From: Rhynchopus sp. YZ270_cl-10
Lineage: Eukaryota > Euglenozoa > Diplonemea > Diplonemida > Diplonemidae
NCBI GenBank assembly: GCA_964035575.1
Contig: OZ037929.1
Coordinates: forward strand, 248,001 to 312,000
Reading direction: 5' to 3'
Length of the DNA: 64,000 nt
The stretch's first letter is position 1. Each line of letters starts with the position of its first letter. The translations under genes and the position numbers were made by a program. The notes beneath the pieces are model-generated. The model was not told where the DNA came from and did no database searches. It worked only from the letters and a program-made list of their open reading frames with translations. This document shows positions 2,437 through 54,963 of this stretch, in pieces.

Positions 2437-2471
2437 AAGATGACCCTAAGCCTCTCGTGCTTAGTCACCTT
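2437..2471 (+). repeat. Short structured hairpin repeat, CTCTCGT loop
   Basis: CTAAGC pairs with GCTTAG around the loop CTCTCGT, and the flanking AAGATGA pairs with TCACCTT as an outer stem. The leader TTTATAAGATGA is shared with copies at 46002, 47099 and 48871. This is a founding example of the family described in the findings. Confidence 0.6.
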
Positions 2472-3586
2472 ATAAAAGAAGAAGAAACAACAACTCCTTG
2501 ATTGTACACTGGGTGCATAATATGCTGACTCACAGAATGTAACCCACGGGCCGTAAAAATAAAGAAACGCGTGTTTTGTGGGGGATTGGGTCAAAAAACT
2601 GGAGCACAGTCATTTTTTTGTTTTTTTTTTTGTTTTTCACACACCAAAAAATATACAACAAGCAGGACCTTGGTTACACACACATCGGAAAAATAGGTGA
2701 ATAGACTCCGTGAAAAGGAATTACCCAGTACTGATTTTTCAAACACATAAAAAAAAAAGGCGGAAATATGCAGTGGGGGTGTGCCTTCCTCTGTATTGCG
2801 AAGGTGTGGTAAATGACACCTCGACGGAAGAAGGCACAGCCTTTGCTAGAGGAGGGGGGGGGGGGAAGAAAAAAACAAAGAAAGAAAAAGGCGTTCTAAA
2901 ACAAAAAAAAAGGTAAAAAAAAAGGACGATTCAAAAAAAAGACTGCGCCTTCCTCAGTCCGAAAGAAAGCACCCTCACTCTGGTTCCCCTGCCGTAAAAG
3001 TGTTGTAGAGGTTACGAGGCACCTAAACAGACCACCATTTTTTTTTTTCAATCTACAAATAGACTACAATACTATTTTCCACCCCCCCATCACCCCGATC
3101 GTACTTTTTTTTTGGTATTTTTTGCAATATTTCGCTTTTGGTGTAAAACAACATAAAAAACACAAAAAAAAAAGAGCCCTTTTTCAAAAAAATGGTCGGA
3201 AAAAAACACCCCCCAAATCTGCTTTTTATTTTGCACAAAAAAATCCTATTTTTTTGGGAGAGAGTAAGGGTGGGGGGAAATCACAAAGGAACAGACGCAC
3301 GAAGCACATATAAAGTGTACACTAAATTTGCCATTTTTTTTGTTTTGTTTTTGTTTTTGTTTTTTTTTTGTATTTTCTTCGAACACGCAGCGAGAAACGA
3401 GCCTGTCAATCCTTACTTGTTTTTTTTTTTTTTTTTTTTTTTGCTTTTTTTTAATCCTGGACCAGTAAAATCCCGCCGTATTGAGTCAAAATTTTAGCCG
3501 TGTATAGTGAAGTGGGGTAAGTTGTCACAACCTTTGTATTTCACGTCGACACAAAATTCTTCTTTTTTTTTTTTTGTTGCTGTTTC

Positions 3587-6465: not shown

Positions 6466-6871
6466 TCGTTTACATACAGTAAAACCCTCTAACGCTCTCT
6501 CGCTCGCTAATGACCTGTCTGAGCTGTCGAGAAAAGTTGCACAAAAAGAAAAGTTGACTTGAAATACAACAGTGTACCTTGGTACATGACCGGTTGGACC
6601 CCCAACCATCCACTAAAAAAAATACCCCTCCCCACCCCCTACCCGGCAATTTGGGAAAGAACGATGCCAAGTGCTGGAAAAAAAAAAGAGGAAAAAAATG
6701 AAAAAAAAAAGTTTGTAAGATGAACCTAGGCTTGAGTCACTACTTAGGTGATCGATCCTACGTCTCTTAGAAAACAGCCTTTTTGATTTTTTCAAGAGAA
6801 AAAAAAAAATGAATTTCAAGGGACAAAAATGGTCCCATCTGTAAAAAGAATTAAAGATATTTTTTTTTTTG

Positions 6872-6915
6872 TAAGATGAACCTCAATCAAAGCCTCCTCG
6901 TTGCTTTAGTCACTC
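6872..6915 (+). repeat. Structured hairpin repeat
   Basis: GTAAGATGAACCT leads into AAAGC-CTCCTCGTT-GCTTT, so the stem is AAAGC/GCTTT. A weaker copy at 6717-6752 pairs CCTAGG-type arms instead. The stem bases differ from the commonest form but pairing is kept. Confidence 0.5.
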
Positions 6916-7038
6916 AAAACCCCCACTTTTTTCTTCCCCCCCCAAAAAATTTCAAAATAAAAAATGGGGGACATATAATTCTCCGCATCCATTTTTCTTC
7001 TTCTTCTTCTTCTTTTCTTTTTCGTTTTTTTTTTTTTT

Positions 7039-7086
7039 GAAAAACTTGGTTGTATTAGTGTAGACACCCCGAGGATGAACTCCACT
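7039..7086 (+). repeat. Dispersed 'CACCCGAGGATGAACTCCAC' module (C type)
   Basis: GAAAAACTTGGTTGTATTAG is followed by TGTAGACACC and the GAGGATGAACTCCAC block. Near-identical copies lie at 45520 and 52684, with more diverged ones at 18035, 24996, 29401 and (inverted) 55161. Confidence 0.6.
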
Positions 7087-7183
7087 ACGCTTTTCCCCCT
7101 ACCCTCTTCTATTGCCTCCTTTTTTTGTCGTTTTGAGCTATATTTCTTCCCCCTTTTTTTCCAAATTTTTTATTTTTTTCTTT

Positions 7184-8603
7184 TCAAACAACATCACAGT
7201 TGTGGAACACCTCTGCAAGCTCAGAGGTGGTGGTCAGGACTATTTGGCGTTCGGAGGAAATCATTCTGAATCGCACGATTTTAAGCATGACATGGAACGC
7301 AGTGAGGTAGGTCCGCACGGTGGGCGCTGTCAGCTGCAGACGCTTCTTCGACGCAATCTGCAGTGCAATGCGCGAAGCCCCTGAATGGCTTCTGGGCGAA
7401 TCATCTGAATCCTCCTCAAGCTCGTTGATGCACGTCTGGTACTGATCCACTATTGCCCTCACATTGCTGTCCACCTCCGCATCAGGAACCTCCACGTTGA
7501 AAGGGTCGACCCCGTCACCTTCCTTCACATTTTCTGCATATTGCTTGACAAATCCCATTAATGCTTGTTTTGCAGCTACCCCAGCATCGCCCTCACCCAA
7601 CACAGAAATATCCAATGCCCCGGGATGTGCGACACCAACATCATTCAAGGTACACAACCCCGCAACAGCGCGTAACGCCTTCCAAGCAGCCTCATCCTCG
7701 CACCCCGGAGTATTCGGGAACAAAGAGATCAACTGTTCTCTAGCAATCAGACGGTCGTCCCCAGAGACCGCATCGCGTCCGGCGCTTGCAGAAGCCTCCG
7801 GAAGGTTGTAGCTTGCGCTCGCAAAAAACCCAGTATCGTTTCCTTCGTCGTCGTCGTCAGTATCATTGAGAATTCCGTGAGTTCCGGTTAACTCCTCAAT
7901 GTTTTCGTCGTCAGAATCTTCAGGAAGAAGCTCTCCATCGTCTGCGGGTTTATCCGCCCCTTTGCCATCATGCAGGCCTAGGGAGGTTGGTTGCTTCTTC
8001 TTTGCGCCTTGCCCCGGGGGAGGGAAGGTTCTGCTCATGTTTCCAGGAACGGTCAGATTGTTGAGGGTATTGGAGAGTTTTGCGGTGGATTGCGCGGTGG
8101 AGGGTTGGAGGCCGCTGAGGCCTACTGTCCAGGCTGCGGCAGGGACGTGAGGGGTGTCGTTGGTGAAGATGCCGTTCGCGTCGCCTTCGAATGCGACTGC
8201 CGCGGCAGGGGGTGGGGGCGGGTTGCCGGAAGAGTCCAGAGGCGCGCCGTCGGGGCTGTCGGTGAGGCGGGACAGCTCAGCGAGGATCGCGTCGACGTCG
8301 CTGCCGGCAGGCTTCTTTGCAGGTTCGGGTTCGACCTCCTTTGCCTTAGGCGAGTCTACAGAAGAGCCGACAGAAGAAGCGCCACCAGCATTCTCCGCAC
8401 CAAGGTGTGTCCCGGTACCGGTCCATCCGGTGGGCTGTGGGTGGGGTGGGAGTGGGAGTGGGAGGGGGGGTAATGATTGAGGAAGGTTGTGCTTGTAGGG
8501 GAAAAGAGTGCTGTGATGTGTGGGGTGTGTGGGGGGGCGAGTGACATACCGACCCGTTTCCACTCCGCCAGTCAGGGGAGCCATCGGAGGAGGCGGTGCT
8601 GTT
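7184..8603 (-). CDS. Unrecognised acidic/low-complexity protein, 5' end unresolved
   Basis: The main exon is 7184-8434 (417 codons with stop), after a clear acceptor CCACCCACAG. A likely upstream exon is 8550-8603: it follows CCCATCCCACAG, ends at a GTATGT donor and reads in the same phase (18 codons, Ser/Gly-rich). The ATG at 8584 lies in another frame and would run into a stop after splicing, so the true start is probably further upstream and was not found. The protein begins with Ala/Gly/Pro-rich sequence and an acidic run (EDSDDENIEEL). It then has an ordered part of about 190 residues containing LFPNTPGCEDEAAWKALRAV and GEGDAGVAAKQALMGFVKQY. That segment only faintly recalls the nucleotide-binding domain of P-type ATPases and no ATPase signature is present. 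Function unknown. Confidence 0.6.
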
Positions 8604-10368: not shown

Positions 10369-10402
<34 letters not shown>

Positions 10403-11984: not shown

Positions 11985-13104
11985 ACCCTGCGGCCAACAA
12001 CAGAAGATGTAAAAAGGAAACCTAATGACTGGCCCGTACCGTAAGAGAACGAGGGCGGTTCACAACCGCTCGACAGCCGGCGGCCCACCTTCCGTTGAAG
12101 AGTTGTGAGCTTACAGGTACTGCAGTTCGCTGCACCCAACGCTTGATGCACGATAGTCTACACAAGAGAGCAGAAACCCAAAAACACAAAAAGGGGTGGG
12201 CGGGGGGGTCACAACATCTCTCTCTTGGCGCCCCATGCTGTACCGACAGTTGGGCCTCACCCTTTCTCTTAGGGATATACATGGACGTCCTTACAGGCAG
12301 CACACCGTAACCCAAAGGCGTGGCAGAGAGACTCCGTAGAGCGACTCTGGCCTGACCGCTGGCCATTTATGCTCCGGGTGCGAGCACCCATCATAGCATA
12401 GGGGGGCCAGCCTGACCCAGCATTTATATACCCTGCCAGGGTGAACTAGCATAAAAGAGGGCAGGGGCGTTTAGACCCTGAGGACTAGGGGAAGTCCCGC
12501 ATACCCCAACAGAAAGACAAAGGCTATGCACTGGTGATATAGGAGAGGCAGGGTTGCTGAAAAACAAAAAGACCCTGAAGGCACAAAAACGCCCCGCATA
12601 CCCCTCCTCGCCTCCTGTTTTGTAATCTCTCAGGTAGGAGACATCGGTTCGAGCGGTCAACACCTTCATAGAGTTTCTGGAGGAACGGACCCCCGGATGC
12701 AATTTAAGGTCCAGCCCAGGACCAAAAAAATGTGTGGAAAAATTCAGGGTGACGTGCGACGAGGGGGGAGGGGAGAGGGAGGAATAAAGAGCGAAAAAAA
12801 AAGAAATTCCTTTGTAAGATAATCCAGCACTGCATAGCTATCTTAGAAAGACTGGGCAATTTTTTCTTTCTCGAAGAACCGGTTTTTAACGCATTCATTC
12901 TTACCATTTTTCTACAGTAAGCAATTTAAAGGGTGTATCATGTACAGCCCTTCCTTATTAGTTCCTTCCGGTATGCAACAAAGGATGCGTAAATAACGAG
13001 GTGCAATGAGGCCTCCGTGGGGTGGGACACACCTAGAGAAAAGGAGGATGGTAAAAGTGCACCAGATGTTTTGGGGGGAATGAGAAACAAAAAGAAAAGT
13101 TGTT

Positions 13105-13140
13105 CAGATGAACCTAAGCCTCACTGTGCTTAGTCTGATT
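13105..13140 (+). repeat. Structured hairpin repeat
   Basis: CAGATGAACCTAAGC is followed by CTCACTGT and GCTTAGTCTG, so CTAAGC pairs with GCTTAG and the outer CAGA with TCTG. A further copy at 13486-13520 has loop CTCGCAGT. Confidence 0.55.
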
Positions 13141-14506
13141 AGATTATTCTTTGGTTTCATCAGTCATTTGCGTTTTTTGTGTGTTATTGCTACTCGTGGG
13201 TGGCAATTTGTTTTAAGTAAGGCTTGGGGGAAACAGGGGGCAGTGTTTAGTCACCTCCTAAACAAATAGCCATGGGGGGGGATGCGTTTTTAAGGTGTCA
13301 GAACCACCTTTTTTGCGTAACTGTATCAGTAGAGGGGAGTGAAAGACCAAAAAAAAAAAGAGAGAGAGAAAAAGAGTAGTTGAAATGTGCCAAAACGCAG
13401 CTCAGTCGAAAGAAATACATTCATATACTTACTATTTATAACACAAACAGTAAGCACTAAAGGGTGTAACACGAAAGAAATGTATAACATGACCCTAAGC
13501 CTCGCAGTGCTTAGTTTGACTATATTACTTAATGTTTAGTCACCTTGATCATCGCCACCGAAGACAAAAAAAGAGAAGTTGAAAGTGCAAAATGCCTCAA
13601 CAGACACCAACAACAACAAAAGAGCATAGTACCGAATCAATGCAGACACCCCTCCCCAGAGGAAAGGCTTTTGTTTTGGGTGGGGGTTTTGAGGGTGTTG
13701 AAACAGATGTCGGAACCTGAGAGTTCTGAGGCGGTTTTGTAATAAAACAATAAAAAAGGGTCTTTAGTTCCACCACAGTTCAAAACGTTCACAGGGGGGA
13801 AGCCACAAGCTACCTGTGTGAGAGATCACACAAAAATTGTTCGGTAGTTTCATGTACCTGAATGCACGTGAGGTTGATAGTGGGAACACCTCTGCTGACG
13901 CAGGCACTATCCGAAAAAGGCAACAAAAAATACAAATCCCCTTCGTCAACAAAAGAAGAAGAAAAAACGTTTGAAGAAAACCCGAAAAGAACGCTGGCTT
14001 GAAATATATTAAGCCTTCTCGTGAACAGTGTACCTTTGTCCATTTCGTGGTTTTCCATTTGAATAGAAAGCAATATGCGATAAATGTTGTTAATGAGAAG
14101 AAGAGAAGGCTGAAAGTGCTAGCGCCTCACCGTTCATCGGCGGGACGCAAAGGCACTACTACTGAAAAACAAATATTCGCTTTTTTTTCGGTTTCAAAAT
14201 CGCGACATAATCCACTCGCGGCGTGTCTGATCGTTTCTTGCTCACACTCTAACATCGACAACAACGATTCTAAGAGAGAGCAACACGATATGGGTTAGAT
14301 AGCCAGAACACTGTGGAGCAGGATTCACTGCGCGTTGTCAACATGTCGTGCACACGCATGATAACAAATGTTTTTTTGAAAAAAAATAAATGGAAGTTGT
14401 AAACAAAACGCCAAAGAGAGAACCAAAGAAAGAGCAGTTGAAACGCTCTAAAAAAAAAACGAAGCTCGAGGTCAAGCTCACGCACGACATGAACATAAAA
14501 TAAAAA

Positions 14507-17788: not shown

Positions 17789-17912
17789 TGTGTTGTGTTT
17801 TTAGTTTTGTCTAAGGAGGGTGAGGGTGTTGTCAGAGAATAGTTAAAAGAGATGAGTTGGAGATGAGGAAAAATGACGTTGTATGCACAGCGTTGAGAAG
17901 GAGTTGTTTTTG

Positions 17913-18082: not shown

Positions 18083-18876
18083 TCTTTATAGCATTTTTGA
18101 TAAAAATTGTTTGGAGTAGTGTAGTTGCCTCGTGCAAATCTCCGCTGATCTCCACTTGTTGGTCTAGGAAATCTTGCTTCAGGAGTCCTTGACTAGTTAT
18201 ATCCCGTGAAATTTTCGCCTCTGATGTAGAAGTAGAAAAGAATCTCTCATTGGATCATGCGTTCTCTTGATCCTAAAAGAAAAGGTGAAAAGGGGGGGCA
18301 TTTGTTATAACTTTATTGGGTGGTTGGTACAAAAAAAAAAGGGGGGGTTGGAAATCATCAGGAAAAAAAAAACGTTGCATGGAAGAGAAAGAAAACTTGT
18401 AAGACGTGGATGTGCCTCTTCGTGCACACACTATCTTTAGAGAAAAAAAATAACGCAGTTATTCTTGCCTACCTTTTGCTGCTTTTGGTACAGCCGGCCG
18501 ACAAACACCGCAAAAAAAATGTCCTCCACATCCCTTCCCTACCCTCTTAGGGATCTATTCATGCAAAGAAAAATTTTCTCCTATTTGGTGCTATGTGATA
18601 TGTCCTTGGCATGCGACGTTCTCCTTCATGAGCACAGCATCGATCTTGCGCTCCACTGCCTAATAAACGTTTTTAAAAATAGGACGGAGCACCCCTAGCA
18701 ATCTACACGGTACCGTAACAGTTCCAAGTTGGTACTTCATTGTAGACGCGTCCAGGGCAGTGTTAGCCGAGAATCAGATGCCGCAGTTGCACCCGAGAGC
18801 GCGACCGCAGCCACATCAACCCTATACTAACGCGAACCCTCTAGCAATCTACACGTACCCTCGGAGCCAATCCTTT

Positions 18877-18922
<46 letters not shown>

Positions 18923-19130
18923 TTCTGTCGGCCAGCGTTGCGAAGAGGAATGCAGCCACCCCCTGTGTTGCCGCCTCCACTGCCTGTCTACTCCTATCCT
19001 TCAAACCCATTTGATTGCGATGTGAAACGCATCCTCAAAAACGAAATAGGTCAACCGACTTTGTCAGCGACCTGTCCCCTCCGGATCACCACCATTCCTT
19101 TTTTATGTCCACTCCTTACCTACCCTCTTT

Positions 19131-22005: not shown

Positions 22006-24326
22006 GGGGAAATGGAGGGTATTCGTACCTGACTTGCAGCAACTTTTACTTTAAGCTTGATGCTATCAAGAGTGGCTCCGGCAGATTGGATTCTGAAGAG
22101 GGAGAAATTTTTGAAAAAGGTTGAGAAGATGACCCCGGGTGACTAAGCCTTTCGTTGCTGAGTCACCTTCATCACATTTCGTTATCGCGCAACATGAAAA
22201 AGTTGGAAGTAGGGGGGGGGGGGGGGGGGGGAACCTCAGTACATACTTTACCACCTCTACCTCCCGCCTCTCCTGCAGCAGGCGGATCTGCTTCTCCAAC
22301 AGGAGGTCCATCGGGCGCGACATAAAGCTGCGTGCCACAAGCATGCCGTTGGAGTACAGGATGATCAGGTGCAGGGAGCGCTCCTTCTCGCCGTCAACCC
22401 TGCGTGGATAAATGAAACATTTAAAGCAGACAACAATATCACACATGGTAGTCTGGACGACTCTAGACTTTTTAAAATCCTAAAGTTTCTTAACCTTTTC
22501 TTGACTTTCAGTAATCAGGAAAACCGACCGACGTTTGGTACCCGGACGGCGCCGGCTCAGCTGAGCCCGACTACTAGGCCGGGTGGCCTGGGCTGCCAAC
22601 GCACGCCAACCACACACGACAACTACTCCAAAAAGTGGGTGTCTTGAGTCTGGCACAGTCGGCCAGACGACATGGATGTAAAAACTCAAACAGAATTAAC
22701 AAGGCAATGACAGCTGCGTTCGACACAGGAGGGTGGCAGCTATTGCAAGCAGTTATTAGTGGAGTGAAGTGAAGAAGCGACTGGTCGACCACATGAAGAG
22801 GCACACGAACACCCAAAAGCGCAATCACGCCAGCAAATAGAGGACACAGCAGGAAAGACACCATCGCGACCGCCCATACGGGACGAGGGGGCACGCTCGC
22901 TTCATGCAAAGCAGCTAGCAAGGACCAGAACCATGGTGAAAATCGCGCGGGATAAGGACAGAGACCTTCGCACCTACGAAGGTAATACGTGGAAGGGGTC
23001 CTCCACGGATTCGCAGCGGTCGCTTGGGCTTGCAGACGTGGAGGATCGGGATCTTGGTAGAATCGATTACGAACACACTTATGTTAACCCGACGTCACGC
23101 ACAACATCCAAAGCACTGCACGCACAACCACCCCAAAGGAAAGACTGCAAGAACGACGGCTGCCTCAACGACTCTCATATTCTATTCCAAATCACCCCCA
23201 TCACATACCTTCTAACCTGTATGCTGCGTATCCCTTTTGACGGCTCTATTGCCACCTGCTCTGAGTAAAGCGACCCCTCCACAGCTGTAGCATCTTGCGT
23301 CACGGAGTCGGACCGTACAAAGATCTTTTCACAGCGTTGCGAGGAGAACGCTGTGAGCAGCAGCTTTGGCGCGAAGGGAATCGGCAGGGCGTGCAGACGC
23401 ACACTAGCAATACCCGAGAGGGGGTGCGGGCTGCTATGTGTCTGCGCCTCCTCCTCGAATTTGGCAGGCGTCTCGGAAACATCCACCTCAGCGAGGAGAG
23501 GTGCGTTTAGTCTCCACTCCCCATCTTTATGCGCTAACACCAACAGACTAGATAGTTTGGTCGCACTCCACGCGATGCTCCGAACAGGAGTCAAAAAGTC
23601 CCGCCCCCACACCTTCTCTCCGCTTCTTGTATCAATTACTACCACCGCGGTACCTCCGTACACAGCAACATAACTCTTCGTTGGATGCAAAGAAAGCTGG
23701 TGTGGCGTTCCATTCAGAAGGCATGGTGAGATCGTTTCAACAAAGGAGTGGGTTAGTTGTATTGCAGGTTCAGAGGATTGCGAGACAGCGGACACTATCG
23801 AGGCGCTTCCGTCAAATGAAGGCATATTCGCAACAGGCACCGCCGTGGGGGTCCCATTGTCGGTCTCGCACCGCCAGATCTTTACGATACCCCGTTGCAG
23901 CCCGCTGTTCCCAGAGGTGACCAAGACGTTGGGAAGGCCTCCCCAAGCGATGAGGGGGGTGATGTGCACTGCACGCCCGCAAGGTGCGACCACGTGGCCA
24001 ACCAGACCCATGGTGAGTCGACTGTAGATCAGTACGTCTGCGCCCACGACGACAGCGAGGAGGTGCTGCAGGCTCTCCCCACAGCACCATGTGCAGTAGG
24101 TGATCGCGCGAACGTTCGGGCAGAACTCCTTCGGGACAACTGCGGTGCGCCGCTCCCGCTCCACAGAGGAGTCAAGCTCAAGAACATAAACCATACGCAG
24201 GTTGAACGTTGCGAGGTAGCGGTGTCCGCGGTCAAGTGCTACCATAGTAAAATCCGGCTGTGGAAGCCTCGTCTTGCACAACGACTGTTGCCAAAGGAAT
24301 TTCCCCGGGCCATTTTGTGTGGCCAT
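19131..24326 (-). CDS. WDR59/Sea3-like GATOR2 (SEACAT) subunit, 5 exons
   Basis: Exons are 23209-24326, 22247-22399, 22029-22092, 21169-21687 and 19131-20102. Every donor is GT, every acceptor AG, and phases agree, giving 941 residues. Exon 1 encodes WD40-like beta-propeller sequence (for example LQRGIVKIWRCETDNG, GTAVVVIDTRSGEKVW). Exons 2-4 give an RWD-like domain (LHLIILYSNGMLVARSF; SANPPVVFFEVL; a helical VLDEIVGYMRQAILDAV segment). Exon 5 ends in the zinc-binding module CAVCSRAVRGLSSTCRLCGH, HVLCL and CPLGCGCHC, which matches the C-terminus of WDR59 residue pattern for residue pattern. In other eukaryotes GATOR2 opposes GATOR1 and activates TORC1 on lysosomes or vacuoles. The regions between the domains are shorter than in animals. 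Intron 4 (1,066 bases) carries two minisatellite arrays; intron 2 carries a hairpin repeat. Confidence 0.85.
20242..20312 (+). repeat. Minisatellite GGGGACTCCTGGGGAGAGGG, short array
   Basis: About three and a half units of a 20-21 bp minisatellite inside intron 4 of the WDR59-like gene. Same unit as the long array at 20712-21152. Confidence 0.9.
20712..21152 (+). repeat. Minisatellite GGGGACTCCTGGGGAGAGGG, long array
   Basis: About 21 units, 20-22 bp long because the G run varies. It ends 17 bases before the donor of exon 4 of the WDR59-like gene. On the transcribed strand each unit reads CCCCTCTCCCCAG followed by GAGTCCCC, a pyrimidine tract plus CAG, so the array presents repeated 3' splice-site look-alikes inside the intron. 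Frames through the array translate as Pro/Ser or Gly/Glu repeats and are not genes. Confidence 0.95.
22126..22169 (+). repeat. Structured hairpin repeat within an intron
   Basis: AGATGACC, then GTGACTAAGC-CTTTCGTT-GCTGAGTCACC. Here the inner stem has gained a U-G or C-G type change (CTAAGC with GCTGAG) and extends to GTGACT/AGTCAC, a longer stem than in other copies. It lies in intron 2 of the WDR59-like gene. Confidence 0.55.
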
Positions 24327-26212: not shown

Positions 26213-27137
26213 CTATAGTCGTAAAACACTAGTCATTTGGACCATAGTGGCACTACTAGTAGCCGAAAATGCAATCCTGACTAGTCTGTCGTGTGGTGTA
26301 TAGAGGGAGAGGATAATAGAGGCTAGAGTGTGAGGCCACGGAGTTTTTCAAAGTTCAAAAAAAAACATCTGAGAAAAAAAAAATCCCCCCCAAAGAGAAA
26401 GGGCACGATATGTTTCGATGTGCTGAGAGCAACACCAGCAAAACACAGACACAGACACACACACAACTACAAAAACCTGAACAAAACCAAAACAAAAGTA
26501 AACTAAAGAAAAAAAAAGCAAATGCAGATTACACAGAGAGAGCAAGGTCAGTTTCGTTATACAAAAAAAAACTGATTGGGGAGATGAATTTTGATCGTTC
26601 GACATCTTTTTTTCGAAAACAAAAGCAAAAAAAAACAGATATTGAATGTGCCTCTCGCACACGATGCAACAACAATAAAAAGGAAAACGTTGAAAGACGA
26701 AGATATGCGTCACGTGCATAGCCACTATACACATCTAATAAAAACTGGAACCATTTGACCCTGAATGACCCGGAAGGCAAGTGGAGAACTGAGAACTGTA
26801 CAAAGAGGTGGTAAGTACACACATTGGGGTGGCCCGAGGGTACGGTGTTTAGCATTTACAAAAAAAAAAATCACAAAAAATCACATGATTTTGATTCTGT
26901 TGTGACGTATTGTGATTTTCTCCGAAAAACTAGAAAATGACTAATTCACCGCGACCACTGGCCACCCCAACAGAGTCCGACAACTTTTTTATGTCCATAC
27001 CGAAAATGGGTCACGAGCGCAAAAATATATAAAAAGCACCCTGATATACCCAAACAACGGGCAATCGGGTTGAAAACAAAAGATGTTATGTAACCTACGA
27101 AGGACACACACACACAGACAAAAAAAATACAATTCGA

Positions 27138-27173
27138 CAAATGAACCTAAGCCTCTCTGCGCTTAGCCACCTT
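27138..27173 (+). repeat. Structured hairpin repeat
   Basis: AAATGAACCTAAGC, loop CTCTCTGC, then GCTTAGCCACCTT. Compared with the copy at 2437, the loop gains one base and the outer stem is AATGA paired with the CCACCTT side. Confidence 0.55.
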
Positions 27174-27675
27174 CGAAAAAGAACAAAGACGAAGAAAAGC
27201 TCTCTTTTAAAAGATAATATGTTCGATAGCAATCACGCTATCTCTGTTTACAAAAATCATGGAAATATATAAAAGTGCATTCAAAAAAAAAACACTTCAT
27301 AAACGCTGTGCAGAGACCCACGCAGACGAGAAAGGGTGCTTGAGGTTTTTTCCTTGTTCCTAATACTCTTGCTCTCACGACCAAGACCTCTCACGATGGT
27401 GAAGTTTAATGGACGTGATTTGGTGGTTTCACTGTAGCTGCGGTCTTCATCGATCCCAGAGCCAAGACATCCACCGATAAGTGCAGTTGTTGTCGCCTGC
27501 AGTAGACAGCGCTACTAACAGGGACGCCAAAAGCCTGCTTACATGTACAACAGTGAAACCACAAAAGTAAAACAACCAAATCACCTCCATTTACTTCATC
27601 GTTGTGTTGATATGGGGGAGGGGACTTTGGTTCTGCTAGCAACAGAGGAAAAAAAAAGAAAACAAAATGTTTTAT

Positions 27676-27709
27676 AAGATGAACCTCAACCTCTCGTGTT
27701 GAGTCATCT
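27676..27709 (+). repeat. Structured hairpin repeat with a covarying stem
   Basis: AAGATGAACCTCAAC-CTCTCGT-GTTGAGTCATCT. The inner stem is CTCAAC/GTTGAG instead of CTAAGC/GCTTAG, and the outer stem AGATGA/TCATCT is now perfect, while the loop CTCTCGT is unchanged. Confidence 0.65.
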
Positions 27710-27774
27710 GAAGAAAGAGTTGAGATGAATTGTGCAAATACCACAACATCCCAAAATGGAACACAATCATAAGA

Positions 27775-28886: not shown

Positions 28887-28994
28887 TATTTCCGTTCAAA
28901 AAATCATGAAACAGAGAAAAATAAAAACAATCGGGAAAGAGACGAACTAAGAAAGAATACGATAGTGTTGTAGATGAAGGATCCTATAAGAAGT

Positions 28995-29030
28995 TACGAT
29001 GACCCGAAGCCTCTCGTTGCTTAGTCACCC
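28995..29030 (+). repeat. Structured hairpin repeat
   Basis: ACGATGACCCGAAGC, loop CTCTCGTT, GCTTAGTCACC. The inner stem is GAAGC/GCTTAG with a changed end pair. Confidence 0.55.
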
Positions 29031-29074
29031 TTTTTTTGATCACATATATAAAGAAATTAATAAGGGGGGTAGGG

Positions 29075-38857: not shown

Positions 38858-38924
38858 TGATAAATTGTTGGAGTAGTGTAGTTGCCTCGGTTTTGTGTTG
38901 CCAACAGTTGTGCAATCTCCACTG
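38858..38924 (-). repeat. D-type module directly upstream of the start codon
   Basis: On the gene strand: AGTGGAGATTGCACAACTG, TTGGCAACACAAAACCGAGG, CAACTACACTACTCCAACAA, TTTATC, then A8 and the ATG. It closely matches the module 125 bases upstream of the tRNA ligase gene, so it may contribute 5' untranslated or promoter sequence. Confidence 0.55.
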
Positions 38925-40384
38925 TCTTTTTCCTAACTGTTTTTTTTAAATTTACCCAGTGGTAGTTAACGACAACCCCCCAGAGGAGGAGAAGGCTGTA
39001 GAAAAAGCAACGAAATGTGGCACGGCGGAAAAATGCGTGGGGGATAAGGGGTAGTGGTGTAACACAAAAAAGGAATGTATATCGTATATCGTCCAAAAGG
39101 ACGGGGTATGGCTTGGTATTCCGTAGTCGGTACCTTCTTTGCTATTATGTAACTGTGTATTTTTTTGTGTACCGTTTTATCCCAAATGTACGTTGGCTGT
39201 ATAATAGGTGTGGGTTGTGTGAGGGTTCAGGTGGTCAAAAAAAAAGCGCTCTAAAAGCAAAATGTGGGATGGGAGAGAGGGAGGGAAGGAAGACTTTCTT
39301 TTAGGTTATATGGTACGACGCTTTTTGTTAGCTTCGATTTTTTTTTAGGGGTTTTCTTTGTTTTAGTAGGGATGGGGGTGCTTTTTTTTTTTTTGCGGTG
39401 GTTTCGACAAACCACCAAAAAAAAAAATGTTGTTTTTCTGCGGGTGCAAAAAAGCAAACAGTCTAAGTGTTAATGCTTCGTTCTTCATGAAGGAGGGGAT
39501 ATTTTTTTTGTTTTTTTTGTTTTTTTTTTTTGGTGACACATACGTGGAAGGCATTGTGTGATCACGTGGTAGCAGCAATGGGGGGGAAACAAGGCATCTA
39601 TATATAAGTAGCGTTCATAAGTACTTTCAAGTCAGTCGAACAAAAAAGCATTTGACAGAAGGGTGCTAACACAGTTACACCCCTTTTTTCTTTTGTGAAG
39701 AAAATTCAAAAAGATTGATGTAGATTTATATGAATTTTTGCAAAAAGAAAAGAAAAGAAAAGAAAACGACAAAACGATGATTTGACATCCACCTGATTTG
39801 TCTGAAATTTTGAAGGAGTTTTTGGTTTAAATACCTCCAAACCCCAAATTTCAGGCAAAATAAGGTGTATCCAACAAATTTTTTTTTTGTCTCTTTGAAA
39901 TCGTATGTGCTGCGGTGTTTTTTTTTTTTTTTTTGCTGTGATTATTTGTAATTTAGTTTGGTATGATCCTGACCCTACTTTGTAGCACATTCGGTGCTTT
40001 TTTTGAAGGGTAAAATGACACCATTAGTGATGATTACTTCTTTTTTTAAATGGCTAGAAACAGTGCTTTTCCGAGAGACTTTCTCGCAACAAGCCAAGAA
40101 AGTGATAAAATTCGTCTTCGTTATGGCAAACCAAAAAGCTGATTTGGTGCTCCGGGAGGGGTCGATATTGACAGGTCGCTGACACAGGAACTTTATACAC
40201 ACCCTGATATTGACAGGTCACCGACAGGTCGTTGACCGACTTCCGAAAGCACCATTATTGGAGACAAGGAGTGGACTCCCTTTGGACACAATCTTCAGCA
40301 GGCACTTTACACAAAAAAAAAAAAGGAGGGCAGCTAGCAGTCCAAAAACTACAGTGGGGAGGGGGAAAAAAATGAAAAGTTTAT

Positions 40385-40419
40385 GAGATGAACCTAAGCC
40401 TCCCGCGCTTAGCCACCTT
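40385..40419 (+). repeat. Structured hairpin repeat
   Basis: AGATGAACCTAAGC, loop CTCCCGC, GCTTAGCCACCTT. The inner stem CTAAGC/GCTTAG is intact while the loop differs from the common form. Confidence 0.55.
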
Positions 40420-40680
40420 CAAAAACGGTTAAAAAAATCACGTCAAAAAAAATGGGGGGGGGATAGGTCAAAGATGCCCACCCAGGTTAAAAAAAATGCA
40501 AATTGCACTATGCAATTTATTTTACAAAAAAAAAAAAACCAAAAAAAAAAAAACATGCCACCACGTCAGAGCCAGGAATGGTGGGAGGAGAAGGGCCGTG
40601 AATGCAATGCCATCAATGTCTCAAAGTGCAAAACGCCCGCGACACCGGACGCAGGCACTGATAATAAAAAAAAAGGAAGT

Positions 40681-40800: not shown

Positions 40801-41748
40801 GACAAAATTGCAGACGTGTATTTTCATTTTTCATTTTTTTTTAGGGACCGGCATAACAGAACACGGCCGAACGTTGAGGGAGTGGAGTGGAGGAGACTGT
40901 CAGCAAAAAAAATAAAATAAAATAAACAACATCAAAAGTTGACAAGATGAACCTAAGCCTCTTGCCTTTTTTCGCCCTCCTTGGAGGTAAAACTTTCATG
41001 CTAAATATCCTTTTGTGCAAACACTTCTGTAGCTCAAAGGGGGATGGGGAAGGGACAGTCGGTACAACGCGAACACACAGTATCGCAGGCTCTCTCTTTT
41101 ATTTTTTTTCTGGACAAACAGCATACGAGGAACTATACACGACGGTGGAGGAAATAACTCCATTTGTGGTTTTATTTGTGATTCCACTGTTGTAAGCCCA
41201 ACGATGAAAACACAAAGGTTGGGCGATAGACAGTAACGTTTTTGTAAACCACAACGCAACCCATATACTTCCACCATCATGTCAGGTTGCATGATGAGCA
41301 ACCCCCTCGTCCGCTCTTCCTGAAAAAGAGCAAAAAAAGATAAATTCCCCTTTTACCCAAGCCCTCTTCGGAGGCTTGTAATGATATACAAGCCCGAGGA
41401 GAAAAAAAAAGAGTAACTACGACGTACAAAAAACGCCTCTGGGACAAAAAGAGGTGGTGTGCGCAGTACCGAACAAAAGAGTATTTTTTTTTTTTTTCAG
41501 AAGGCATACCACAACCCCTTTTTTCCTGTGTAGAGAACAACGGGAAAGTAAGGGGCGAATGGGTCTACCTTTGTAACTACCGTGGTCATGACTATGTGGG
41601 GAACGTTGCATGAGATGAGAATGAAAAAAAAAAAACAAATTGGCTGTTTCCCCAATTTGTGACATCCCCAATAGAACCGTTCAACGTACACATATTTATG
41701 TCCGGTGGAATTTCTTTTTTCCATTTTATTTTTGATGATTTGTTTTTT

Positions 41749-45519: not shown

Positions 45520-45565
45520 TGAAAACTTGGTTGTATTAGTGTAGACACCCGAGGATGAACTCCAC
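45520..45565 (-). repeat. C-type module upstream of the three-RRM gene
   Basis: Gene-strand reading: AGTGGAGTTCATCCTCGGGT, GTCTACACTAATACAACCAA, GTTTTC. It is almost identical to the copies at 7039 and 52684. Confidence 0.6.
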
Positions 45566-46001
45566 TATACTACATTTTTTTTTTGTTTTTGCTCTGTTTT
45601 TGTATTGTATTTCATAGTACTTTGTAAGTTGAGAGGCGCGCTTCTTTGTTAAGATAGCGACTACCGTCTTCGTAAAAAAAAATGTTCGACCGTAAAAAAG
45701 GACGAACTTCCAGAAAAATTGATGCGGGGAAATAAAAGAGGACAGCTTTTTTTGTTGGTTTTTTTTATACGAAACTGGGGGATTAGGGATTTAGGGGAGA
45801 ATGAAGGGTGGAAATGGGACAGCGGGGGCGATTTCCGAAAAAGAAAAAATGGGGGGAAAACAGAGGGGGGTACGGAGGTGGGTGAATAGGTCTGATGTGG
45901 TGCCGTGTGGACATCCACTGAGGGGGGAGGGGGGGTTATTTTTTTAAATATTTGAATACTAACTGGAGTGTGAAGCACGGTGAAACAAAAAGAAAAGTTT
46001 A

Positions 46002-46038
46002 TAATATGACCCTAAGCCTCTCGTTGCTTAGTCACCTT
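46002..46038 (+). repeat. Structured hairpin repeat
   Basis: AATATGACCCTAAGC, loop CTCTCGTT, GCTTAGTCACCTT, preceded by GAAAAGTTTATAATATGAC. Confidence 0.6.
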
Positions 46039-46246
46039 GAAAAGAAAAAAATTGCATAACTAACATGGGCGAGAAGCAGAAAACGTCACCTAGAAAAAAA
46101 AAAGAAAAATACACGCACACATTCCTCCCCTGCCACACAGTTCTGTATTTTTTTGTAGACACTAAAAGCCATATTTTATTTCACCAGATAAAATTGTTAT
46201 TCAAAAAAATGGAACTACACACTCCAGCAGAAAGAAAGCGAAGCCC

Positions 46247-46955: not shown

Positions 46956-46986
46956 TGATGAATGTGCCTCTCGTTCATACACATCT
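46956..46986 (+). repeat. Structured hairpin repeat, ATGTGC subtype
   Basis: GATGAATGTGCCTCTCGTTC is followed by ATACACATC. Relatives at 47606-47637, 54821-54846, 26643-26666 and 18402-18430 keep the CTC-CGT loop with a GATGTGC/GCACATC-type stem. Confidence 0.5.
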
Positions 46987-48419
46987 AAAGGTGCAAGAGT
47001 CCAGCATCAGATAAGGAAAAACAGGAAAAAAATATACACAGTTCGCATGAGAGGGGGTTATTGTCGCATTTCAAATGTCTGGGGGGAAAAAGAAAAGTTT
47101 ATAAGATGACCCCAAGTCTTTTTATCACCTTGAAAATAGTAGGATCGGGTATAGGTAAAGCTGTCGTTGATTTGCACAAATCCTCCTGTTTTGAGGGATG
47201 ATTTTGGCGGTACCCCGGTAATACTATTTTCTCCTTTAAAACAAAGTTCGGAGGAATAAAAAAAAAATTGCATAGACTAATGGGCGAGAAGCATAAAACC
47301 AAAAAGAAAATGGGTGTTGATGCAGGCATCTCTGACCCACGCGATGCCCGAATGAAAGCTGCAAAAAACAAAAAAAACAAATTCATATACTTTCAAATAA
47401 AATTTGAAAGCATTAGGGAAGTGTATAAAAAACAACATCAACCCATCTTTTTTTTTAATATTTCTTGTTGTAAAAATGTGAAAGGGGAAAAATAAACTGT
47501 TTCCTTGCATAAATTGAAACTTTCAGTAGATTGGTTTCGAACTTTTACCCTGTTTCAGTCTTAAGAATTATACAGTAAAAAAAACAAAAACAAAAATAGT
47601 TGAAAAGACGAATATGCCTCGCAGTGCATACACATCTCAAAAGAAACAAAAAAAAAAAAAAAAAAAAAAATGTAAGTTGAAAGTGCAAAACGCCTCCGTG
47701 GACGAACGGCACACACCTCTAGCTGGAGAAGGAAAGCACTGCGCGAACAGTTGTTAAAACCGACAAAAAAAAAAAAGCGTAGATTTTAAAGGAGAAAATG
47801 GGTCCTCCGATACGGTCGCCAAAAATCACCCACCCTCCAACAGGAGCTAATTGAGCAATCAATCGAAAAAAACCCTCCTTTCACTTACCTATCAGAATTA
47901 CCATTTTTTTGTTTTGTTTTTGGACACCAATGAAGGAGCCTAGAAAAGCACGCTCCCATATTGTGAGAGCATTGTGAGTTTAATAAGTTGCATTCTTTTT
48001 TTTTACTTTTCAAAATCAAACACAGTGAAACCGATGTTCTTGTGAACGTTTGGTTGCTTTTTTTTGTACAAAAAAAAGTTGGTCACCTTTTTTTTGAAGA
48101 AAAAAAATTCAAAAAATATATAAAAGTGAATTTGATAAACATGCAGACACCTCAAGGCAAAGGCGGGCGGAGGCACAGTGCCCAGCTGTGCTATACCAAT
48201 GCGGCAGTAGCAGTAACAAAAAAAAAAAACACAGAAATACCACAAAAAAGACACACAAAAATACATCTCCGAATTAACACACATCGTATTGTACTGACAA
48301 AAAAAAATATAAGAAACTTTGTATAAGATGAATGTCACTCTCATGCACCCCCAAACATCTAGATAACAGAACTACACCCTCACCCATATACCCCATATAC
48401 CCCATATACCGTACCATAC

Positions 48420-48502
48420 CGTAAATGTAAATATGATGGAACTGCCCAAAAAAAAAACGCTCGTTCGTTCCAACATTATTACGGTCCATATTTACATTTA
48501 CG
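48420..48502. repeat. Inverted repeat with 16-bp perfect arms
   Basis: CGTAAATGTAAATATG (48420) and CATATTTACATTTACG (48502) enclose about 50 bases. Short MITE-like hairpin; ATACCCCAT repeats precede it. Confidence 0.75.
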
Positions 48503-48870
48503 ACCCCCCCTCCCACCCCGATTGAGAGTAAAAAACCGGACTTTTACGGCCGTCACCAATGATAACACGACTAGGAAAAAGGGATTACTTTCGTTAAAAC
48601 ATAACGCAGCCTAACAGCGTGATCTGAATTTGCGTAAGATGTCAACGGGAGGGGAAAAAAATAGTCGGTCTCAGAGGCGATGAAAAACGTTGGCTTTTTT
48701 TTTTCATTCCGGTTTCTAATAACACTGTGTGTTGGGGAGGGACAAGAATACGTTACTGCAGTCACAAAACCTTCAAGCACTCTCAAGCACCCCCCCTCGA
48801 TTTAAATAAAAAGCCCCTTTGGGGCAACAAATACTGTATTATACAGAAGAAAAATAAAAAGAAAAATTTA

Positions 48871-48907
48871 TAAGATGATCCTAAGCCTCTCTGTGCTTAG
48901 TCACCTT
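48871..48907 (+). repeat. Structured hairpin repeat
   Basis: AAGATGATCCTAAGC, loop CTCTCTGT, GCTTAGTCACCTT. It is followed at once by a B-type module (48921), the same neighbour relation as at 40385/40681. Confidence 0.6.
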
Positions 48908-49758
48908 GAGAAAAAAAGTGAATTAATGCAGGCACCCTCAGACTGACCCACTATGCCAGCCTCGGATGAAAGCACAAAAGAAAGGTAGTTGAAAATGCAA
49001 AATAAAAAAAACGCATTCACTGGACAACCCGGCGAACACAGTGCATTGAACAAATATGACTTGAAGATATGACCATGACATCGCTCCTGCATCAGTAAAC
49101 AAAACAAAAACAAAAAAATACACCCCTTTAATCCCATCGTACTGTACGCATCAACAAAACACCCCTTCAAAAGATTCCCCATTTTTTCTCTTTTTTTTTT
49201 TTCAATACAGAAACTTCGCAAATAACAGAAAAAAATAAATACACAACCCTTTAATTTGGCTAGGATCCTTCTTTTTTATCTACACTACCAGGCCTGACGC
49301 TAAACAGTGACAAAAAAATCGCACTTTTTGGGCTTGGAATTCTTTTTTACGGGATTTTTTTTACAATGGAAATCAGGGGCGTTTTTTTCGACTCTGGGAA
49401 ATCTAGTTTTTTATACCACAGAGTCACCCATTTTTTTTGCGGAGCAAAAAAAATGAAAAATGGCGCCGGCAAAATAAATTCACCCTCTCTAGACCCCCTC
49501 CACACCCTACATACATTTCCCGTAAAAAAAAATGAACTTTTCAAGAATTTTAAAACTCCCATGGGTTTAGCAACAGACCTGACTACCACACAACGCATTT
49601 TGTTTTTCTCCCCCTTCCCTTCCCTTCCCCTCCCCTTTTTTTTTCAAAACTTATTAACCTACCCCTCTCCCCCCCTTCCTCCCATCCCTCCTCCCTCTTG
49701 CAAAAACCCCCATCCCCTCCTTCATTTCCCCTAAATACATAACCCCCCCTTTCATCCC

Positions 49759-52305: not shown

Positions 52306-52903
52306 CGTTTAAAAAAAGGGGGGGGAAATTCCCCCCCAAAAAAAATGAAAATGGAATAGGGATATACAAGGGGAGAAGGAGGGGGTGGGGGGGGTTTTAT
52401 ACAAAAAAAGGAAAGTGTGTAAAGTCTGGGGAACTGTGACGTAGAGGGGGGTGAGAATGGGGGGGTTTGGATTGGGGGTTTTATAGGTAAATGGGAGGGG
52501 GGGTGGAATGGAGGGGGGGCATGTAGGGGTGTCGTTTTTTTTTGTTTTTGTGAAAACTTTTTGGCTATTCCCTTTTTATGGAATAGAGAGAAAAAAAAAA
52601 TGGAGTCGGTGGGCTAAAAATAGGAAGTTTCCTTCCTAATCGTGCACACTGGCAAGAAAAAAAATCGTTTTTTTTTGTTTTTGTGAAAACTTGGTTGTAT
52701 TAGTGTAGCCACCCGAGGATGAACTCCACTTTGTTTTTGTTTTTTGTTTTTGGGTCAATGGATGGGCAGGGGGGTACCTCACCATGCAACTATGATGTGC
52801 CATGTCGTCCTTTTTTGGTGTTCAAAGTGTGAAGCGTCACGATGAGTGGCTCCGCTTGTGGGATTCCTCCGGTGGTTCGTCTCTGCTGCAGTTCGGACGG
52901 GCT
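52306..52903. other. Intergenic with a C-type module
   Basis: No gene seen. G-rich on the plus strand, so pyrimidine-rich in the minus transcript. The C-type module is at 52684-52730. Confidence 0.5.
52684..52730 (-). repeat. C-type module
   Basis: Gene-strand reading: AGTGGAGTTCATCCTCGGGT, GGCTACACTAATACAACCAA, GTTTTCAC. It matches the 45520 copy at all but about one core position. Confidence 0.6.
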
Positions 52904-53719
52904 TCAACGCACTAAATTATCCAGCTTCAATTTTCTCAACACAGCACCACTGCACCCGGTGTAGTGAATGCTCTTCAACGAAGAGCATCCCCAAAGAAAG
53001 AAGGAACTGTCGAAGTGTGTCACGCTGCGCAGCGATGATACGTCCAGCGTACGCAACGTACCGCACCCAGAAAGGAAGCTGTGCTCAATTTCTGCCACAT
53101 TGCCTAGTCCTCTCAAATCCAGTGTACGCAAAGCACTGCATCCATGAAGGAAGCTGCTCTTAATCCGTGTAACACTGTTCAGTGGTGTTAAGTCTAATGT
53201 ACTCAAAGAACCGCAATTAGAAAGGAATCTGAACCCAATCTGTGTAACATTAATCAACCCAGAAAGGTCGATGCTCTGCAGGTCTGAACAATTGCATAAG
53301 AATCTGTCTCCGATTTCAGTCACAACAGACACTGTGCTCAGATCAAGACTCGTTAACGATGTGAACTGCAAGAAGCAATCAGGAATCACCGTCGCAACCT
53401 CCGCTTGCAGAAGCAAACACGCCACCTTCGGATCCTTCACACCCCCCAGCCTCTCTGCAGTGATGTCGGTCTCACCCAACGCATGAAGCGCTGCTCTGGC
53501 CGCGAGCTTCTTCACCATCGTCAACACAATCGTATCCCCAGCACTCAGCTGCGTCATATCGTACCCTTCGTCCAGCACCTCTCCAAAACTCATCGCAAAA
53601 CCGTCTTCAGGCAACCCCACTGCAGACGCGACCTTCCGACGCATCACCACAAATGTATCATCCTCACCCAGCTCGACCACATGCTTCGCTCCATTCAACT
53701 CTTCGATAGTCACGTCCAT
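52904..53719 (-). CDS. Ubiquitin-like domain plus leucine-rich repeat protein
   Basis: A single exon encodes 271 residues from the ATG at 53719. Residues 1-72 look like a ubiquitin fold (MDVTIEELNGAKHVVELGED, then DMTQLSAGDTIVLTMVKK). From about 110 to 260 there are six or so irregular leucine-rich repeats of about 23-24 residues with the pattern L-x-x-LDLS...V..I...FL..C, ending in CSSLKSIHYTGC. The repeats resemble BspA-like/LRR_5 repeats. Upstream bases in the same frame are open but the ATG chosen starts the domain. It could be a substrate adaptor or part of a multigene family. Function unknown. Confidence 0.75.
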   Translation of the reverse strand: MDVTIEELNGAKHVVELGEDDTFVVMRRKVASAVGLPEDGFAMSFGEVLDEGYDMTQLSAGDTIVLTMVKKLAARAALHALGETDITAERLGGVKDPKVACLLLQAEVATVIPDCFLQFTSLTSLDLSTVSVVTEIGDRFLCNCSDLQSIDLSGLINVTQIGFRFLSNCGSLSTLDLTPLNSVTRIKSSFLHGCSALRTLDLRGLGNVAEIEHSFLSGCGTLRTLDVSSLRSVTHFDSSFFLWGCSSLKSIHYTGCSGAVLRKLKLDNLVR

Positions 53720-54963
53720 TTGTACTATTACAAAGCCTTTTCCCCTGTATGACGAGCTAGAGACGGTGTGTGATATGAGGTGTGTGTTTGATAACAATAG
53801 GGGGTAATTCTTGCGCAGAATATGCCCCAATGTGGGGTGTGTGTGTGGGGAAAGAACAGAACAGCACCAAGACAACAGAAAAAAAAAAACACCCACACAG
53901 ACGTGCTGACGTATCAGCACAACAAAACGCGCCGCATCTTCAGGGTTCACGGCAACAGACCATATTGCTTATTGTGGGTTTCTGTGACACCCCGCTTCGC
54001 TCGACACACTCTTCGATGCTTCAGCACACGAAGACACATCGCCACAAGACGAGGCTAGATAGAGAAACACCAATAGGTAAAAGACGGTGCAGAAGGAAGG
54101 GACAATGGTTGTTGCCGATGGGTTACGAGAGCAGAGGAAGCGACAGAGGCTCTGCACAGCATGCTATGCTCGACTTGACGGTCAATCGGAGGTGGGTGGA
54201 CGTGAGTGACAGTGACCTTAACGCTGAACGCTTCAACAAAACCTGGATAGTGCACATGCAGCAACTAGTCCAACGACTGAGGGTGAGGGTAATGCGGTGG
54301 GTGGGTTGCCGTGCGGGTGGCCTAGGTGTGGTGCCACCCGGGCCGGGCGGGACAGGGGGGAACGAGTCATCGTTCCAGATTCGCATCTCACTGATCATGT
54401 GAGGTCGTATCATAACTGTAGATGGACGATGTACAAGTTTTTTTTTAGGTGAGATGGATCCTCCCACATTTTGTACAGACCACGGTTATAATCAGTGTGA
54501 CAAGTGTCCGTCACTGCAAGAGTGCTGTGAGAGGCACCTACGACAGGAATTTTACCCCCCCCCCGAGGGACGCGGCCCTCGTTGAGTAAAAGAGCGACCC
54601 TCAGGGGGGGGGATCGTCTGCTGTGGCTTAAGCCCTCTTCCCTTCCCCATATAGATACTGTTTCGCCCTGAGGCAACTTAGGAAACCCACACCGGCTTTC
54701 AAACACAAGAGAAGAAAATTCGGACCTTTTTTTATTTTATTTTTTTTGAACCGATTTTCCGGTCTTTTGTCGCTGATGCTTTGATAAAAAAAGAACTCCT
54801 GAAAGTAAAGACTCTTCAAAATTGAATGTGCCTTTCGTGCACATCTGAGATATAAAAAAATGAAAGGGTTTTTGCAAAGGGGCTAGGCCGAGATAAGGCT
54901 GAAGAGAAAAAGTTTGTATTTTTTGAAAACCGTAAAGAAACCCCCCCCTTCACCCGCTGACCC
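53720..54963. other. Intergenic with a palindromic motif and a hairpin repeat
   Basis: No gene supported. The TTCTTGCGCAGAAT motif lies at 53799-53828, 80 bases upstream of the Ubl-LRR start, and an ATGTGC-subtype hairpin at 54821-54846. Confidence 0.5.
53799..53828 (+). repeat. Conserved GGGTAATTCTTGCGCAGAAT motif, copy 1
   Basis: GGGTAATTCTTGCGCAGAAT plus ATG-CCCC. The same 23-24 bases occur in two introns of the bL12m gene (57697 and 58476). ATTCT and AGAAT can pair around TGCGC. Confidence 0.7.

Follow-up and report, generated by a model that had tools for sequence, protein, structure and literature searches.

The main type of dispersed hairpin in a diplonemid-like genome is very probably the 3′ end of a LINE retrotransposon and lies in the direction of the genes

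What are the short hairpins that recur throughout a stretch of contig OZ037929.1 of Rhynchopus sp. YZ270_cl-10, and why do they all face the same way? The stretch analysed (positions 248,001 to 312,000 of the contig, hereafter the window) covers 64 kb within an assembly of 152.4 Mb in 126 contigs; the wider region that was scanned is 104 kb. A first-pass annotation had listed such hairpins at 17 places and proposed that they were RNA-processing signals, small RNAs or structured transposon ends, and hairpin-like sequence of the kind described is indeed present at all 17. Two types, with similar loop and layout, can be told apart by the stem: type A (CTAAGC/GCTTAG-like) and type B (TGTGC/GCACA-like). 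For type A, the last of the three proposals was right: given the common 3′ ends, the variable 5′ starts and the reverse transcriptase open reading frame (ORF) upstream, these hairpins are very probably the 3′ end of a non-LTR (long terminal repeat) retrotransposon, that is, of a long interspersed nuclear element (LINE), and type B would, by analogy only, be the 3′ end of another LINE. We do not put this more strongly because the case for type B is one of analogy and because the 41 of 49 sampled copies that scored as lacking LINE sequence in front include copies of a longer form. The hairpins are best filed as a known thing, LINE 3′ tails, with two unusual features, truncation at the hairpin and orientation with the genes.

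The evidence for a LINE comes from copies elsewhere in the genome. Thirty of them, chosen by an exact core, are conserved from about AAGGTGA to TATAAAC, with the similarity fading in a T-rich stretch. A whole-genome search with one locus (L017) gave 1,375 candidates, of which the best 40 were scored, most matching about bases 18–130 of 181. The copies fetched share a common 3′ end and differ in their 5′ starts, the element copies being about 110 to 1,658 nt long; the longer ones (248 to 1,658 nt) are 97–100% identical to the locus L068, and copies of 1,656–1,660 nt (L070, L073, L074 and L077–L080) are 98–100% identical to it. These last run on upstream past their match to L068, save at the point where the element in L068 is itself cut (base 7245). 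L068 was considered as an intact LINE and discarded, its 1,383-amino acid ORF being EGF/teneurin-like.

What precedes the hairpin is the closing part of an ORF (...IPDNKLVEASAADAVR, then the stop), and the order at the 3′ end of the element is stop codon, 10 nt, hairpin, AUAAAC stretch and T/C-rich tail. In L081, a copy that is itself 5′-cut before the endonuclease domain, the ORF extends over 1,112 amino acids, contains RVT_1 (E 7e-24) and has LINE-1 ORF2p and R2 as its best solved matches. A protein that stands for 44 sequences (P0001) is 99% identical to this ORF over the searched residues 400–1112, and carries both Exo_endo_phos (E 8.5e-10) and RVT_1 (E 3e-24). The 3′ region of the element folds better than 200 of 200 shuffled sequences (z −3.95). 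Eight of the ten rows of long copies are T/C-rich in front (L071 is an exception, and L067 is so only in part); L075 and L076 look like one insertion that was duplicated. An ORF for reverse transcriptase and endonuclease, combined with one variable edge and one fixed edge that carries a tail, is the mark of target-primed reverse transcription. The same combination makes a foldback or miniature inverted-repeat element of the DNA-transposon kind, which the near-palindromic copies (L093) could suggest, virtually out of the question.

The same genome holds a sister LINE (P0004), whose protein is 41% identical to P0001 and contains Exo_endo_phos (E 4e-8). Its search gave 716 candidates; 35 were scored, and 33 of these match over the full query with 95–100% identity, one with an internal stop. 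In seven of eight fetched 3′ ends the stop is the same and is followed by another hairpin and by a tail that starts with ATCAACTTCA; in the eighth (L085) the stop region is changed. This hairpin differs from that of type A (z −2.08, with 6 of 200 shuffles as good). By analogy with these two LINEs, type B may derive from the 3′ ends of a further LINE that is older or extinct. A search of a phage collection gave no match.

Membership of the family was judged with a covariance model (R1) made from 26 sequences, seven of them from the window. Type A accounts for 11 of the 17 places, matched by R1 at E 0.58 or better, seven of which match by construction, being in the training set; outside it, 13105 (E 1.5e-6) and 13486 (E 1.7e-5) are clear, and 6872 (E 0.062) and 22126 (E 0.58) are weak. 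The weakest of the listed places is 48325 (E 2.2). Type B comprises 18402, 26643, 46956, 47606 and 54821 (3, 2, 0, 2 and 3 mismatches, respectively); since a scan at three mismatches also yields evident chance matches, 18402 and 54821 were assigned by eye, from loop and layout. R1 added three places to the earlier list, namely 699 (E 0.028), 6714 (E 0.047) and 47100 (E 0.0026). In the 104 kb it gave 22 matches, two of which (E 0.017 and 0.93) are minus-strand palindromes read weakly on the plus strand; the other 20, down to E 2.2, are all on the minus strand. Strong matches outside the training set are those in L042 (216–261, E 1e-13; 1277–1321, E 9e-13). In the whole genome, CCTAAGCCTCNCNNNGCTTAG occurs 759 times and a 24-mer from the 3′ half of the hairpin 2,181 times, with no occurrence of the control in either case (for CCTAAGCCTCNCNNNGCTTAG, the backwards sequence). 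Some type A tails have a long form, with about 30 extra nucleotides flanked on both sides by GACTAAGCACAGAGAG or a variant of it (L003, L014, L016, L018, L024, and 13105 and 13486 in the window). The features of the window are as follows.

699..734, minus strand: type A hairpin, degraded (R1 19.7 bits, E 0.028, outside the training set)
2434..2478, minus strand: type A 3′-end hairpin, hairpin-only copy, T-rich on both sides (R1 67.3 bits, in the training set)
6714..6750, minus strand: type A hairpin, degraded, then a long pyrimidine tract (R1 18.9 bits, E 0.047)
6870..6922, minus strand: type A hairpin with changed stem AAAGC/GCTTT (R1 18.5 bits, E 0.062)
13102..13144, minus strand: type A, long-form subfamily, ATCTAATCAGACTAAGC before the stem (R1 35.6 bits, E 1.5e-6, outside the training set)
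13483..13530, minus strand: type A, long-form subfamily (R1 31.7 bits, E 1.7e-5, outside the training set)
13860..13912, minus strand: older copy of the sister LINE 3′ hairpin (4 mismatches in 22; outer limits by eye)
18402..18437, minus strand: type B hairpin with TGTGC/GCACA stem (3 mismatches; layout judged by eye)
22123..22176, minus strand: type A copy reaching upstream into the LINE 3′ region, GCGATAACGAA... (R1 14.9 bits, E 0.58; extension score 28, where shuffles reach 20 at the 99% level and 27 at most)
26643..26670, minus strand: type B hairpin (2 mismatches)
27135..27180, minus strand: type A hairpin (R1 49.4 bits, in the training set)
27673..27716, minus strand: type A hairpin with compensatory stem CTCAAC/GTTGAG (R1 54.5 bits, in the training set)
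28993..29038, minus strand: type A hairpin (R1 42.9 bits, in the training set)
40382..40425, minus strand: type A hairpin (R1 52.6 bits, in the training set)
40938..40961, minus strand: type A hairpin, 3′ half only (regular expression match)
46000..46045, minus strand: type A hairpin-only copy in a T-tract (R1 62.4 bits, in the training set)
46956..46988, minus strand: type B hairpin (exact GAGGCACATTCATC)
47100..47138, minus strand: type A copy, part of the stem-loop missing (R1 23.6 bits, E 0.0026)
47606..47640, minus strand: type B hairpin (2 mismatches)
48322..48348, minus strand: weak hairpin, probably degraded (R1 12.7 bits, E 2.2)
48869..48914, minus strand: type A hairpin-only copy in a T-tract (R1 69.5 bits, in the training set)
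54821..54853, minus strand: type B hairpin (3 mismatches)
57838..57898, minus strand: sister LINE (P0004 family), a 3′ terminal copy cut at the last codon, with its own family hairpin (exact 22-mer at 57865; outer limits by eye)

The hairpins and their covarying stems are largely real. In an alignment of 19 window copies (A1), on which the covariation counts are based, the inner stem is paired in 90% of cases and four of its five pairs have changed on both sides. Cells with a double change number 14, against 5.5 in shuffled alignments (none of 500 reaches 14); paired cells make up 80.2%, against 74.8% when shuffled and at most 49% when slid; and the covariation score is 0.226, against 0.150. 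The compensatory change that had been reported thus stands on these counts, although two of the five measures used do not rise above shuffle level. Within the limits of the shuffle tests, the claim of a selected RNA structure was correct for type A. The further claim that simple copying does not explain the family holds only in part: the dispersal is explained by copying, while the compensatory changes would be explained by selection acting on the hairpin tails of LINEs that are active, under which the stem would stay closed as its sequence changes. The loop is conserved, varying by a base or two (in A1 and in the copy profile, by eye). CTCTCGT is near its consensus but is not strictly conserved, as there are 12 exact matches against 4.6 expected, seven of the 12 lie outside hairpins, and other loops are common genome-wide. 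A conserved loop on drifting stems is what 3′ stem-loop recognition of the stringent type predicts.

The hairpins had also been described as all facing the same way, opposite to the genes. They do face the same way (20 of 20 R1 sites on the minus strand), but the strand had been misread because the palindrome was taken on the plus strand; the gene strand is the minus strand too. Of the ORFs scanned (19 on the minus strand and one, RNase H-like, on the plus strand), seven long ones on the minus strand have accepted Pfam domains, and the hairpin RNA is placed on that strand because the parent element lies so. Base pairs agree modestly, sense cells being G-U in 23 cases and A-C in 12, and of four copies folded on both strands three have the better z on the minus strand. 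At 49 loci tested for gene direction, 23 are concordant, 4 discordant and 22 undecided. In three of the discordant loci (L011, L018, L029) tandem repeats had misled the test, and on inspection their evident long ORF agrees; in the fourth (L014) the discordant ORF presumably belongs to a tyrosine-recombinase transposon, to judge from its motif.

The co-orientation extends along whole contigs, where the copies mark strand blocks. Among the 24-mer sites listed on contigs C1–C3 (98 sites), the strand switches seven times, against 42 expected and a minimum of 27 in 10,000 shuffles. Of 29 sites of the first motif, 27 match the strand of the blocks that these switches delimit and two fall outside the blocks; seven of seven longer LINE copies (three of them of the sister LINE) match as well, and so do, once the blocks are widened by 100 kb, three type B sites. 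Some of the sites compared in this way belong to copies already represented among the 24-mer sites. Among 173 exact-hairpin sites listed on 34 contigs, which are parts of longer lists (the first 100 of one and, from another, those on C9–C37), there are 25 switches, against 66 expected. On the sites listed, 11 contigs show no switch, C2 shows three, and 22 show a single one, always from minus on the left to plus on the right and never the reverse; C1 shows three in the denser 24-mer listing. The 22 single-switch contigs look as if chromosomes consisted of two arms transcribed outward.

Insertion into poly-T was considered as the full cause of this orientation and rejected, since run counts on the two strands are similar and would put only about half of the copies in sense: on the gene strand of the 104 kb, T-runs of at least 10 number 68 against 51 A-runs, those of at least 12 number 24 against 27, and pyrimidine tracts 55 against 43 purine tracts. 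In the same region the sense and antisense counts are 14 and 0 for the type A 3′ half, 1 and 0 for type B, 2 and 0 for the sister LINE, 4 and 1 for a repeat D and 4 and 0 for a repeat E (backwards controls 0); D, with its one antisense copy, shows that strict orientation is not common to all repeats. The orientation could stem from transcription, from replication or from selection, and if the arms also replicate outward the first two are not separable here. Co-orientation despite similar T- and A-run counts bears on whether LINE insertion is coupled to transcription or replication.

The second unusual feature is that so many copies consist of the hairpin alone. In a sample of 49 copies (30 picked on the exact core and 19 found by R1 on contig C97), LINE sequence within the 110 nt ahead of the hairpin scores above the 99% shuffle level in 8 and not in 41; two of the 8 (scores 21 and 22) fall below the shuffle maximum of 27, and five of the 41 are long-form copies by eye (L014, L016, L024, 13105, 13486), which leaves about 36. 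Genome-wide, 278 of 1,208 exact hairpins have the adjoining LINE bases ATGAT and 930 do not. This overstates the share without LINE sequence, because in a check of 28 exact or near-exact copies, a set biased towards LINE-bearing loci, nine had ATGAT and three of the other 19 had altered LINE sequence. Scaling the 930 by 16/19, we estimate that roughly two thirds of the exact hairpins have no LINE sequence. Directly in front of copies without it the share of T is 0.49, falling to 0.35 at −31 to −60, against a background of 0.27.

A mechanism may be proposed. The LINE enzyme would bind its own RNA through the conserved loop, as in zebrafish ZfL2, and the A-rich strand opposite a T-tract would prime reverse transcription on the U-rich RNA tail, a step suggested by the T/C tail and the mostly T/C-rich flanks. 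Reverse transcription would often stop at the foot of the hairpin on its 5′ side, or close to it; alternatively, the RNA copied would start there. The reason for so many starts at the hairpin, and that for the strong co-orientation with genes, could each hold a general lesson.

If the RNA itself starts at the hairpin, the copies might be a tiny short interspersed nuclear element (SINE), with its own RNA of about 45–60 nt that uses the LINE enzyme. This would refine the reading as LINE ends, not oppose it, and it would account for the pile-up of 5′ ends at the hairpin in the 41 of 49 copies (about 36 without the long form), for ATGAT on only 278 of the 1,208 exact hairpins and for type B being seen as hairpins alone. 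We consider it unlikely: the hairpin has the LINE's own sequence, without a separate promoter module or 5′ body, an early stop of reverse transcription yields the same pattern, the figure of 930 is too high for the reason given above (the 3 in 19), and some copies begin inside the stem (L002, L005, L006). No promoter-bearing 5′ module of the SINE kind (tRNA, 5S, 7SL) was found, there being no tRNA in the window and no Rfam family at gathering score at the hairpins, and the majority of sampled copies begin with the hairpin or inside it. We raise, as a tentative possibility, that the hairpin alone is a main mobile unit, which would rank among the smallest retroposons known, and that its insertion is strand-locked by priming on the strand exposed by moving transcription or replication machinery, for example on A-rich lagging-strand or template-strand ends opposite T-tracts; parallels are found in lagging-strand priming and in group II introns. 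Were this so, the hairpins would be a genome-wide compass of fork or transcription direction, and the chromosomes would be made of two outward-running arms.

The proposals of a signal in RNA fared less well. The hairpin, the branch-point-like AUAAAC stretch and the pyrimidine tail could together form a 3′ splice site, in trans or in cis, and the position on the gene strand, the T-rich tract after the hairpin, the several copies that run into CAG and the three that by eye seem to lie in introns (L057, L058, L067) would fit. Yet the first AG after the hairpin lies at a median of 30 nt and is YAG in 55% (65 of 68 copies, three without an anchor being dropped), which equals the AG exclusion and YAG enrichment of control T-tracts of the region (sense, 32 nt and 55%, n = 381; antisense, 31 nt and 45%, n = 263), shuffled sequence giving 27 nt and 62%, and the U2 of this genome, with GTATTA for GTAGTA, fits AUAAAC loosely. 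We regard this splice-acceptor reading as very unlikely and abandoned it, a LINE having been found instead; RNA-processing signals in general are not supported either, since what follows the hairpins resembles a 3′ splice site no better than other T-tracts do, and no Rfam family reaches gathering score at any hairpin. Pairing of the hairpin with small nuclear RNAs was likewise dropped, the longest perfect match being 6 nt to U2, with none of at least 6 nt to U6, as was a match of 7 nt in the spliced-leader (SL) region, which by eye lies behind the SL RNA. The Rfam result also tells against small RNAs. A host regulatory RNA kept at each place, be it a stability signal in the 3′ untranslated region (UTR) or a small RNA, would agree with the gene-strand orientation, the intergenic location and the covarying stems, but the copies share element ends and tails, belong to mobile families and are in many cases degraded, and we hold it to be highly improbable.

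Several points weigh against the reading of the hairpins as LINE ends. Target-site duplications are unreadable in poly-T, with T/C-rich sequence on both sides of the copies, and the pile-up of truncation at the hairpin is left unexplained. The parent LINE of type B was not found, and the type B copies compared share a hairpin of about 41 nt only. The genome searches scored the best candidates only (40 of 1,375, 40 of 281 and, for the sister LINE, 35 of 716). In A1, pairs with double changes (5, against 3.7 in shuffles) and further pair types (14, against 13.9) show no excess. Folds of single copies (six on the minus strand) reach z below −2 in two only (2437, −2.94; 22126, −3.36), the other four being at −1.44, −0.96, −0.17 and −0.18.

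Other features of the region and of the genome were noted. Two more dispersed repeats occur in the window, one of them hairpin-like (CATCCTCGGGTGTCTACACTAATACAACCAAGTTTTC, at 52721, 45557 and 7076 on the minus strand and 55171 on the plus strand; GGCAACTACACTACTCCAACAATTTATCA, at 38886, 29493, 18129 and 17942 on the minus strand). A 783-amino acid ORF with RNase H-like matches at 59789–62140 (plus strand), opposite to the genes, is probably another retroelement; a large ORF at 14798–17797 (minus strand) has a tRNA ligase kinase domain, and 18673–18923 (minus strand) holds a fragment matching eukaryotic large-subunit rRNA. An SL core sequence occurs at 752 places in the genome with at most two mismatches (control 1), many in tandem; in L036 an SL gene, which we take to be diplonemid-like, reads CAACCAACGATTTCTAAAGCTACAGTTTCTGTACTTCATTG then GTATGG, with U6 genes nearby. 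A stretch of 3 kb in L045 contains the genes for signal recognition particle RNA, U2, U4 and U5, and the arrays are repeated (L045–L047, L035, L036). The U2 gene there (1501–1691, minus strand) reads GTATTA; the usual branch-point pairing sequence of U2 is GTAGTA.

The nearest named protein relatives of the LINE are from Diplonema papillatum, whose LINE-type elements are named R2, jockey and X-element in the protein search. That species has genes in unidirectional arrays, an SL on essentially all mRNAs, an SL-5S-U2 arrangement and about 3,600 scattered pieces of 28S (PMC10161547). The word hairpin does not occur in the main text of that paper or of PMC12621601, and no description of a diplonemid LINE 3′ hairpin was found in the titles and abstract openings searched, with subscription journals and supplements mostly outside. 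An apparent new RNA family becomes the tail of a LINE, and two sister LINEs with different 3′ hairpins are found in one diplonemid-like genome.

The closest known systems are the stringent LINEs ZfL2-1, ZfL2-2 and UnaL2, which are alike in the ORF for reverse transcriptase and endonuclease, the 3′ stem-loop, the 5′-truncated copies and a loop that is kept while stems differ (PMC4176376). In ZfL2-1 and ZfL2-2, deletion or swap of the 3′ stem-loop abolished retrotransposition, while ZfL2-1 with a foreign stem and its own loop kept about half of its rate (PMC4176376). Type A differs from them in its diplonemid host, in a hairpin that is almost the whole 3′ UTR, in its T/C tail, often by T-tracts, in the lack of LINE sequence in front of most sampled copies and in the strong co-orientation with genes. 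In this last respect it resembles, by description, the short interspersed degenerate retroposons (SIDERs) of Leishmania, which are likewise retroposon remains in polycistronic arrays with a gene-orientation bias, are about 0.5 kb long, are called extinct and are about four-fold commoner in sense (PMC2689281, PMC2424063). Unlike SIDERs, type A measures about 45 nt, has near-identical long copies in its family and shows no antisense copy in the 104 kb; by analogy with the co-option reported for SIDERs (PMC2323293), some type A copies may have been co-opted as well.

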